Below, piece after piece: positions 40,939 through 45,268 of a DNA stretch of 64,000 bases. The position numbers and the translations under genes were made by a program. The notes beneath the pieces are model-generated. The model worked only from the letters and a program-made list of their open reading frames with translations. It did not search any database and was not told the DNA's origin. Source of the stretch: Arcobacter sp. EP1. GTDB lineage: Bacteria > Campylobacterota > Campylobacteria > Campylobacterales > Arcobacteraceae. Location of the stretch: NCBI GenBank assembly GCA_001655195.1, contig LPNY01000132.1:227109-291108 (forward strand), written 5' to 3'. Each line of letters opens with the position of its first letter. The stretch's first letter is position 1.

Positions 40939-41925
40939 CTATGCGTAGTGGTTTTGATATGCTTTGATAAAATCTTCAATGGGAGTCAAATCAACTTTAT
41001 CATTTAATTGAAGCTCTAAATCCATCAAATAGATATCATTGAGGTTAAATTTTTTGAGTTTAACTAAATCTTTTGAGGTTGTTATTATAGAATACTCTGG
41101 GTATTCACTTAAAATTCTATCAATATCTTCTTGGGTAAACTCATAATGATCTGGAAATGCTTCCATTTTAGTAGTTTCTGGTAAAAAATCTAAAAGACGA
41201 TTAGGTTTTGAAATTGCTGTTAGTAGAAGTAACTTTTGCGGTAAGATAGACATATTTTGTCCATTTAGTTTGTACATAACATGGCGTTGAAAATCTTCGC
41301 CTTCACGTAAAACCATATGTGCCATAGAGTACATCATCTTTGGTTCTCGATAGCCACCACTTGGCAAACACAAGATATTGGTAGGTTCCTCTTTTGGACG
41401 AAGTAAAATATCAAACTTTGCAATATTATATTTAGAAAAACCATCATCAAGAAGAACCAGTTTACACCCTAGTTCTTTGGCTTTTAGAATTCCTTTACTT
41501 CTGTCTTCACTAACAATTATTGTAGCATTTGGCAAGGTTTGAGCTAAAAGCATCGCTTCATCACCACTAACATCCACATTTTCTAAAATATTACCCCGTT
41601 TACTAATAACATAAAGTCCTTTGGATTTACGTCCATACCCCCGTAAGATAATAGCTACATTTTCTCTATTTTTTGCTAGAAAAATTGTAAAGGGAGTCTT
41701 TCCACTTCCTCCAACAATAATATTCCCAATAGAAATAACAGGCACTCCAAAGTCAACAGGTTTAGCACCCGCTCGTTTAAAAGCAATAATTATCATATAA
41801 ATTAATGTAAAGGGAAGAAAAAGTAAGGAGATTAGTTTTTGGAAAGGTGTTGGAAAGAAGAGATACTCTTCTGCCCAACTATAAAATTTTTGATTCAAAT
41901 TAGACCCACTCAGAGGCAATCTCAA
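40939..41925 (-). CDS. lpxK: tetraacyldisaccharide 4'-kinase LpxK
   Basis: A 328-residue inner-membrane kinase that phosphorylates the lipid A precursor at the 4' position. An N-terminal hydrophobic helix (about 30-50) anchors it; the Walker A motif is NIIVGGSGKTPFT, and a DDG motif (LVLLDDGFSKY) follows. It is the last gene of the seven-gene minus-strand unit. The ATG at 41925 overlaps the previous gene by 26 bases; a TTG nine codons later is an alternative start. Confidence 0.9.
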   Translation of the reverse strand: MRLPLSGSNLNQKFYSWAEEYLFFPTPFQKLISLLFLPFTLIYMIIIAFKRAGAKPVDFGVPVISIGNIIVGGSGKTPFTIFLAKNRENVAIILRGYGRKSKGLYVISKRGNILENVDVSGDEAMLLAQTLPNATIIVSEDRSKGILKAKELGCKLVLLDDGFSKYNIAKFDILLRPKEEPTNILCLPSGGYREPKMMYSMAHMVLREGEDFQRHVMYKLNGQNMSILPQKLLLLTAISKPNRLLDFLPETTKMEAFPDHYEFTQEDIDRILSEYPEYSIITTSKDLVKLKKFNLNDIYLMDLELQLNDKVDLTPIEDFIKAYQNHYA

Positions 41926-43036
41926 TTATTTTATCACAAATGTAATTCACATCATCATCCGTTAGACTTGGATAGATTGGAAGTGATAAAATTTGTTGAT
42001 ATGATGTTAATGCACTACCAAACTCAGTAATCTTAATAGAGTACTTAGTTTTGTAATACGTTAATAGATGTAATGGAATATAGTTAAGTCCCGTATTAAC
42101 ACCCTGCTCTTTTAAAGCTCTCGCAAAAGCATCTCTGTTTCGTGAAATTTTAATAATATATTGTGTAAAGATATGCTCTTCTTTATGACTTGGAACAGCA
42201 ATATGCTTAACACCAGAGAGTCGTTCTTCATAAATTTTTGCAATCTCTTTTCTACGCTTGATAAATTTATTTGTTTTTTGTAGTTGTGCTAATGAAAAAG
42301 CAGCATCAAGTTCAGACATATCATATTTATGTCCAATATCAATCACATCATAAATATAGTCTAAGTTTCCATAATCATCATAAGTTGTTGTAACAGCATG
42401 CGTTCGTAGTAATCGCGCACGTGTTGCAATCTCTTCGTTATTGGTTACAATAACACCTGAGTTACTAATATCTGTTCGTCCATTTGACGGGTTTGTTGAA
42501 AAGATAGTCATATCTGCTCGTAATGCTCCAACAGTGTCATCTTTATAAGTAACACCCAATGCTGTAGTTGCATCTTCAATCAAAATAATTCCATACTTTT
42601 CACAAATATCATACAATCTATTTAAGTTTGGTGTTTGTCCTGCAATAAAAGATATAATAGCCCCTCTAAGTTTTTTAGAACTGTTCTCTTCTAAAGCTTT
42701 TTCAAATTTATTTAAATCAATATTCATATCATCAACATTAATATCAATAAAAATTGGCTCTGCATCAAAATGTCGAACAACCTCTGGAACATTAACAAAA
42801 GAGTTAACAGACATCAGGATTTTATCACCACGCTTTAATTTAATAGCACTAAGTGCTAAATGTAAAGCAGCTGTTGCATTACATGTTGCTACTGCGTGTT
42901 TAACACCAATAAAGTTTGCCATATTCTCTTCAAATTCAACAACTTTTGAACTATCTTTATCAGAATCAAGTACCACTTCTAGCTGATTTAACTCTTCTTC
43001 TCCCACCGAAGACTTATAAAATGCAATATCTTTCAT
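41900..43036 (-). CDS. DegT/DnrJ/EryC1-family protein lacking the PLP lysine
   Basis: A 378-residue member of the DegT sugar-aminotransferase fold. The family Asp that contacts the pyridine nitrogen is kept (D155 in LIEDATTALG). The loop that normally carries the Schiff-base lysine (pattern FSFHxxK) reads FSTNPSNGRTDISNSG (179-194); the Lys position is N185 and no lysine occurs in the loop. So it is unlikely to be an ordinary aminotransferase. Its ATG overlaps the nadE stop (TAATG), and it overlaps lpxK by 26 bases. A regulatory, structural or altered-chemistry role is possible. Confidence 0.85.
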   Translation of the reverse strand: MKDIAFYKSSVGEEELNQLEVVLDSDKDSSKVVEFEENMANFIGVKHAVATCNATAALHLALSAIKLKRGDKILMSVNSFVNVPEVVRHFDAEPIFIDINVDDMNIDLNKFEKALEENSSKKLRGAIISFIAGQTPNLNRLYDICEKYGIILIEDATTALGVTYKDDTVGALRADMTIFSTNPSNGRTDISNSGVIVTNNEEIATRARLLRTHAVTTTYDDYGNLDYIYDVIDIGHKYDMSELDAAFSLAQLQKTNKFIKRRKEIAKIYEERLSGVKHIAVPSHKEEHIFTQYIIKISRNRDAFARALKEQGVNTGLNYIPLHLLTYYKTKYSIKITEFGSALTSYQQILSLPIYPSLTDDDVNYICDKIIEIASEWV

Positions 43037-43797
43037 TATTCACTCCATTGTATTTGTGCGATTTGGGGTAATTTCCCTTTAAAAGCGTTGGCTTTTATTC
43101 TATACTCTAACATATCGATTAACTTCTCTTGAACACCCTTCTTAAGAAGTTCATCTTTACTTTTACCCTCATCAACAAGTTGTTTTAAAACATCATCCAT
43201 TTCTTTATAGGTATATCCAAGTTCCTCTTCATCACTTTGACCTTCCCAAAGATCAGCACTTGGTTTTTTATCTAAAATTGCTTGCGTAACACCTAAAAAT
43301 TTAGCAAACTCAAATTCATCACTTTTGTACATCTCACCAATAGGATTAATAGCACAAGCGATATCTCCAAAAATTGTTCCATACCCTAAAAGAATCTCAC
43401 TCTTATTAGAAGTACCCACAACTAATGATTTATCTCGTGCGCTTACATCATATAAAACTGACATTCGCATACGTGCAGAAAAGTTACCTATTCGCATGTT
43501 GTCTTCATCCATTTTATTTAAATAAGCGTTAACCATTGGAGCAACTTCAATCACTTCATACTCAATACCAAATTTTTTACATAATTCAAAAGCATCCTCT
43601 AAAGACGAGTCACTTGAAAATTGAGATGGCATTAAAACACCTGCCATGTTATCTCCAAACGCCTCTTTACATAAAATAGCTACAACAGCTGAATCAAGTC
43701 CACCTGAAATACCTACTGTAACACGTTCTAGTCCAGATTTTGCAACTTCATCTTGTAAAAAAGTGATAAGTTGTGTTTTGATATGTTCCCAGTTCAC
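43036..43797 (-). CDS. nadE: NAD synthetase NadE
   Basis: A 253-residue ammonia-dependent NAD synthase. The PP-loop GISGGLDSAVVA and the KSEILLGYGTIFGD and KKPSADLWEGQSDE motifs are clear; there is no N-terminal glutaminase domain. The start is set at GTG 43797, for which AAGG lies at a suitable distance; an ATG three codons upstream sits too close to that site. It is in mid-operon. Confidence 0.92.
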   Translation of the reverse strand: MNWEHIKTQLITFLQDEVAKSGLERVTVGISGGLDSAVVAILCKEAFGDNMAGVLMPSQFSSDSSLEDAFELCKKFGIEYEVIEVAPMVNAYLNKMDEDNMRIGNFSARMRMSVLYDVSARDKSLVVGTSNKSEILLGYGTIFGDIACAINPIGEMYKSDEFEFAKFLGVTQAILDKKPSADLWEGQSDEEELGYTYKEMDDVLKQLVDEGKSKDELLKKGVQEKLIDMLEYRIKANAFKGKLPQIAQIQWSE

Positions 43798-43829
43798 TAA
43801 AATCATCCTTAAAATGTCAAATTAAATAA

Positions 43830-44512: not shown

Positions 44513-45268
44513 CTATAAACCTCTATCCTTTTTTATCATTTCATACGCTTCATTGATCTCTTGTAGCTTTTTCGTTGCTTCATCAATAATACTTTGACTT
44601 CCACCTTGTCCTGAAATAATATCAGGGTGATGTTTTTTCACTAAACTTCGATACTTTTTCTTGATAGTATTGTTATCATCATCGGCATTTGATTCTAAAA
44701 TAGCGTAAGCTTGGTCTAAAGATACCGCTTGGTTATTAGCTTGTTCTTTATAGAATGTCTCAAATGCATTAATAAGTCGCTCAAAATCGGGTCGTTTTAT
44801 TTTTAAAGCATTAGCAATATCTTCACAAATCATAAACTCTGTTTGTGAGAAATCTTTATCTATAAAGGCTAAGTTTAATAGATACTCCATCACTTTAACA
44901 CGTTTAGTATAATCGCCTTTAGTTAACTTATAGAGTCGTTCACATATTTCTAAAGTATTTTCAAAACTCTTTTTTTGTTCACTATAAACACCTTTTAACT
45001 TCTCTCTAATTTCATCAGCATTTTTAAAGTGCGATGAGATATCACTAAAGGTATGTTTTAACATTTGTGCTTCTAGCTCACACACTTGTCCATCTGCTTT
45101 AGCAACTTTTGCCATAAGTGCGACTAAAAGACCAGCTTCATGGTGCATCAAGTCACCCGTAAAATTCTCTTTAACATCCAGTTTAATTTTTTCATACTTT
45201 TCTGTTTTATAGCCACGTGCAATAAAATAAAGAATAACACCAATAATTAATAAAACCAATAATTTCAT
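44513..45268 (-). CDS. TerB-DnaJ (DjlA-like) cochaperone
   Basis: A 251-residue protein with one N-terminal membrane helix (about 2-17), a TerB-like helical domain (about 45-150; LVALMAKVAKADGQVCELEA) and a C-terminal J domain (about 185-251) with the HPD motif in KKHHPDII. This is the DjlA layout, so it should recruit DnaK at the inner membrane. It opens the seven-gene minus-strand operon; AAAGGA precedes its start. Confidence 0.88.
   Translation of the reverse strand: MKLLVLLIIGVILYFIARGYKTEKYEKIKLDVKENFTGDLMHHEAGLLVALMAKVAKADGQVCELEAQMLKHTFSDISSHFKNADEIREKLKGVYSEQKKSFENTLEICERLYKLTKGDYTKRVKVMEYLLNLAFIDKDFSQTEFMICEDIANALKIKRPDFERLINAFETFYKEQANNQAVSLDQAYAILESNADDDNNTIKKKYRSLVKKHHPDIISGQGGSQSIIDEATKKLQEINEAYEMIKKDRGL

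Follow-up and report, generated by a model that had tools for sequence, protein, structure and literature searches.

The active sites of DegT-family proteins lie at dimer interfaces. Within this family, the aminotransferase for UDP-4-amino-4-deoxy-L-arabinose, ArnB (PDB 1mdo, 4oca and 8snj), is the best match in the PDB, by sequence and by fold, to the protein described here, and PseC (TIGR03588; PDB 2fn6 and 2fnu) is another close fold match. ColD and the RfbH/E1 3-dehydratases have the DegT fold without a Schiff-base lysine; histidine takes its place, and these enzymes retain both the histidine and the rest of the motif. A fold-type I protein can also lack the PLP lysine and persist as a non-catalytic member of a complex, as is the case for SPT1/LCB1, which partners an active homologue as the lysine-less subunit of the PLP enzyme serine palmitoyltransferase (PMC6148460). 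Likewise, a dead paralogue acts as an activating subunit in trypanosomatid deoxyhypusine synthase (PMC3663545). Here we describe a gene, termed X, in a stretch of 64,000 nucleotides from Arcobacter sp. EP1 (the window), which encodes a DegT-fold protein of 378 amino acids that has neither the lysine nor the histidine and intact motif of the ColD/RfbH type.

All window features given below are on the minus strand. X (41900..43036) lies between nadE, encoding NAD+ synthase (43036..43806; PF02540, 1.8e-78), upstream, and lpxK, encoding the lipid A 4′-kinase (40939..41925; NF001892, 412 bits, above the cut-off), directly downstream. A sequence-only reading of this locus had stated that X overlaps both neighbours. 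This holds for nadE, whose stop codon shares one base with the start of X (TAATG). Because lpxK has two candidate TTG starts, its overlap with X depends on the choice between them: the first TTG (41925) gives 26 bases, while a TTG one base past the X stop (TAA-T-TTG), at 41898, gives none, and from the reading of the junction the latter is the likely start. We found no terminator-like site between 40700 and 44600, and a search of the X region against Rfam returned zero matches. Upstream of nadE is a gene with a DnaJ domain (44513-45268; DjlA/TerB-like, by eye), which remains near nadE in many relatives within the Arcobacteraceae.

The assignment of X to the DegT family in the same reading was confirmed by profile and by fold. 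The PF01041 profile (DegT/DnrJ/EryC1/StrS) matched over the full length of the protein with 274.9 bits (1.5e-81), against a curated cut-off of 19.8, and an AlphaFold2 model built from a 69-sequence alignment reached a pLDDT of 93.3 and a pTM of 0.92. When this model was searched with Foldseek, ArnB came first (TM about 0.88 over the whole length, 27-28% identity) and PseC was among the top matches, revealing the fold of a fold-type I aminotransferase. X differs from ArnB in its gene setting, in having Asn185 where ArnB has Lys188, and in a patch of conserved residues that is its own. The PseC profile, TIGR03588, was the top NCBIfam match at 266.1 bits, under its equivalog cut-off of 423.5; the small-domain Y-x-P and YY residues are common to X and PseC, whereas PseC-type paralogues retain the lysine that X lacks. 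The RfbH profile gave X 102.7 bits, against a cut-off of 423.

The pairing of Asn185 (codon 42482..42484) with ArnB Lys188 in a HMMER alignment to 1mdo bore out the central claim of the sequence-only reading, that asparagine stands where the Schiff-base lysine belongs. That reading had proposed an alignment of orthologues, in which a normal lysine would have counted against it. In 118 distinct X orthologues, with 33-83% identity, we found lysine at this column in none (0/118); the residue was N in 52, Q in 18, H in 17, P in 7 and D in 4, with other states including a gap in the rest. The lysine of the FSFHxxK loop was thus absent from the window protein and from all 118 orthologues, and was present in 41/41 of the paralogues in our tree. 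The former Schiff-base loop, residues 179-194 (FSTNPSNGRTDISNSG; 42455..42502), has drifted, with entropy ranks mostly 196-373 of 378, and in family f23 it is shorter by several residues. A lysine shifted within the loop was ruled out as the Schiff base: position 187, two residues past 185, is Lys in 63/118 and Arg in 12/118 orthologues, the window protein itself has Arg there, and 40/118 loops have no lysine at all. It is also unlikely that a lysine from elsewhere, K331 or K329, forms the Schiff base, as the geometry would be improbable. Sequencing error and lineage-specific decay were ruled out by the 118 distinct lysine-less orthologues together with the low dN/dS given below. In a maximum-likelihood tree of 45 X representatives and 41 lysine-bearing DegT paralogues, a branch supported at 100/100 separated the two sets. 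Because X forms a single lysine-less clade set against lysine-bearing DegT proteins, the lysine would most simply have been lost once, at the base of the X clade within the Campylobacterales. By descent X is best classed as a DegT-fold pseudoenzyme and, by the defining residue, not as a PLP aminotransferase.

We then compared the remainder of the cofactor site. T55, D155 and S180, like the lysine, are invariant in the 41 paralogues and drift in X. The Asp for the pyridine nitrogen, which had been described as intact, is indeed so in the window protein (Asp155, in EDATTALG; codon 42572..42574), but this does not extend to the whole family: Asp was found in 109/118 orthologues, and E, V, I or N in the other 9. 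Residue 158, the O3′ residue (His, Gln or Glu in paralogues), ranks 374 of 378 in conservation within X. When five PLP-site residues were scored, 40/41 paralogues had 5/5; 84/118 X proteins had 4 or 5 and 34/118 had only 1-3, with one or two left in some members of the Arcobacteraceae genus g5 and of families f14 and f13. Since the window protein retains most PLP contacts (T55, F80, D155 and S180), it could still bind the cofactor without a Schiff base. X might then still be an enzyme of the ColD/E1 sort, holding PLP or PMP non-covalently in the old pocket for dehydratase or other nucleotide-sugar chemistry, and the 84 orthologues with a nearly complete site and the retained small-domain residues P321, H323, Y327 and Y328 are consistent with this. 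We nevertheless consider it unlikely that a swapped catalytic residue is at work, because the replacement at position 185 is variable (N, Q, H, P, D or a gap) and offers no conserved catalyst, because the loop drifts and is shrunken in f23, and because some lineages lack both the pyridine Asp and phosphate-site residues; the poor conservation of residue 158 also speaks against it. The same genome carries an RfbH/E1-type 3-dehydratase homologue, L004 (G000:C68:207166-208341; NF011936, 402 bits over the scanned stretch, just below the 423 cut-off), with His for the PLP lysine in an otherwise kept motif, SFYAAHHITTGEGG, and this is a natural internal control for a lysine-replaced, motif-intact DegT enzyme. 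The parallel with ColD drawn in the sequence-only reading was not supported, as the replacing residue varies and the loop decays in X while L004 retains its motif. These features are better matched by a role without catalysis or by a new site located elsewhere on the protein. That X would no longer carry out PLP chemistry is well supported as an inference.

A different set of residues distinguishes the X clade when conservation in X is contrasted with that in paralogues. It comprises a patch in three parts, K68 R69 G70 D71 K72 (42821..42835), R88 H89 F90 D91 A92 E93 (42758..42775) and K121 K122 (42671..42676), a small-domain motif N300 R301 D302 x F304 A305 (42122..42139), and the pair K331 Y332 (42041..42046), which hardly varies in X but is seldom found in paralogues. 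For the patch we scored K68, R69, D71, K72, R88, H89, F90, D91, E93, K121 and K122, allowing K/R exchange at basic sites; all 11 were found in 108/118 X proteins, and paralogues had 0-6 of 11. All nine of N300, R301, D302, F304, A305, K331, Y332, L343 and Q347 occurred in 102/118 X proteins, compared with 0-5 in paralogues. Because the patch sites were themselves selected for conservation, which makes conservation alone circular, what carries weight is how these sites differ from their counterparts in paralogues and from the decaying PLP site. L098, L100 and L084 have a ruined PLP site yet the full patch, and L094, L096, L097, L103, L105 and L107 combine a ruined site with 8 of 11 patch residues. 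One X orthologue, L087 (G295; f10 g71), has 4 of 11 patch residues and all nine small-domain ones, and so offers a natural comparison of the importance of the two sets. In the secondary structure of the AlphaFold2 model, the segments 68-72, 88-93 and 121-122 stand just before strands 72-76, 93-97 and 123-129, while the PLP-site residues F80, D155 and S180 are at or past strand ends. Because of this strand topology, the patch would be placed on the large-domain sheet edge, on the side away from the cofactor pocket.

These observations are consistent with a scheme in which a DegT protein of the sugar-aminotransferase type lost its PLP lysine at the base of the clade, after which the remaining cofactor site drifted and a new, strongly conserved constellation was gained. 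X would then dispense with PLP chemistry and serve as a binding subunit, an adapter or a regulator, and the main candidate surface would be the basic and acidic patch (K68-R69-D71-K72, R88-H89-F90-D91-E93 and K121-K122) at the large-domain edge opposite the old pocket. Alternatively, the conserved K/R/H/D/E constellation could be the active site of a new enzyme whose substrate is, for example, a phosphorylated precursor of lipid A or another anionic molecule. The set is rich in catalytic and phosphate-binding types (K68, R69, D71, K72, R88, H89, D91, E93, K121 and K122, with R301, D302 and K331) and is more in keeping with a specific site than with general attraction to membranes. However, a single pocket formed by the conserved residues is putative, residues are lost in some orthologues (4 of 11 remain in L087, and 8 in L105 and L107), and an active site like this patch is not known to us from any fold-type I protein. 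We regard a new active site as improbable.

To place X in its genomic context, we examined its distribution and neighbourhood. Every one of the 104 Arcobacteraceae genomes searched gave a DegT match at E ≤ 1e-40; in all except G018 and G060 a match reached E ≤ 1e-80, where X orthologues score. Across the Campylobacterales, 277/399 genomes had a match at E ≤ 1e-70, a threshold to be read against the closest lysine-bearing paralogues seen, at 1e-62 to 1e-67. A search of all species genomes, which covers close relatives only, returned X solely from Arcobacteraceae records or Arcobacteraceae-like bins. The retention of X in the nadE/lpxK operon, as had been proposed, extends well beyond this genome: the order nadE-X-lpxK is kept in most Campylobacterales lineages, with the adjacency of X and lpxK the more constant link. 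In lineages that lack X, nadE mostly adjoins lpxK, as it does in f10 g43, f13 g63, g83 and one g32 genome, f15 and f17. In Campylobacter jejuni and Helicobacter pylori nadE presumably adjoins lpxK with nothing in between. As the X-less lineages are scattered in the LpxK tree (8 changes, at least 4 of them forced by supported branches), X would have been lost several times, with f12 and f15 possibly cases of primary absence.

Because the X and lpxK genes are usually adjacent, the likeliest partner or ligand of X would lie in the lipid A 4′-kinase step, either LpxK or a phosphorylated lipid A precursor. A link between X and LpxK is perhaps real, gene order being its whole basis. Several observations count against it. 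A comparison of LpxK columns co-varying with X presence gave nothing beyond the NadE control (4/73 compared with 7/86), family f23 has X without an adjacent lpxK, and several X-less lineages retain lpxK, so LpxK has no strict need of X. In f23, members L099, L104 and L095 retain X though lpxK is elsewhere in the genome. X is followed in L099 by a thiE-like gene and in L104 by a pdxJ-like gene (pyridoxine phosphate synthase) on the other strand, both identified by eye. One f23 genome, consisting of a single contig, lacks X and has lpxK split into three pieces in different frames (G140:C1:383888-384712; L217, L219 and L220); frameshifts in the assembly or decay of the gene might account for this. 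We judge the case to be evenly balanced for X as a non-PLP pseudo-aminotransferase that acts by binding through its new patch, most likely to a partner or ligand in the LpxK step. We put forward tentatively, as a possibility with some way to go before it is probable, that X serves lipid A synthesis in the Campylobacterales as a dedicated accessory factor or as a new enzyme, with its site opposite the old PLP pocket.

We also found strong constraint on X. Its dN/dS was 0.004-0.07 in the closest pairs, below that of nadE and lpxK in every computable pair, with a median of 0.135 over 267 wider pairs. In near relatives, median identity to the window was 78.8% for X, 72.7% for NadE and 64.1% for LpxK, and in distant relatives 48.7, 54.0 and 47.0%, respectively. 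These rates indicate that X is under strong purifying selection. It has to be considered that X is a decaying remnant retained through translational coupling of lpxK, as might be suggested by the coupled gene junctions and by the lineages in which X is missing and nadE adjoins lpxK, but the low dN/dS in close pairs and the intact, confidently predicted fold leave this strongly disfavoured and scarcely credible.

A further alternative is that X pairs with a lysine-bearing DegT aminotransferase as the inactive member of a heterodimer, by analogy with SPT1 and SPT2. The dimer-interface position of DegT active sites would suit such an arrangement, as would the precedents of a lysine-less partner subunit and an activating dead paralogue (PMC6148460 and PMC3663545). 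However, the operon contains no lysine-bearing partner, and X is not known to have one. Because DegT paralogues vary between genomes, a constant one was not seen in this non-systematic comparison, and we consider a heterodimer quite unlikely.

Collectively, these data suggest that X is probably a former enzyme with a new job, long retained across the Campylobacterales. A search of the open-access literature, outside which most subscription journals lie, for the DegT gene between lpxK and nadE or for lysine-less DegT proteins found no report on X. Annotation by homology would label X a sugar aminotransferase of the DegT family, yet the residue that defines such an enzyme is absent across the Campylobacterales. 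In near relatives it is constrained at least as much as its operon neighbours. Elsewhere, dead paralogues are already known to act as partner or activating subunits, with SPT1 and trypanosomatid deoxyhypusine synthase as examples. A role for X in lipid A synthesis, if real, would add an unrecognised component to an essential pathway, in a group to which both pathogens and major environmental bacteria belong. With or without that role, X would be a clear example of a PLP fold that has given up its active site and gained a different conserved surface in exchange.
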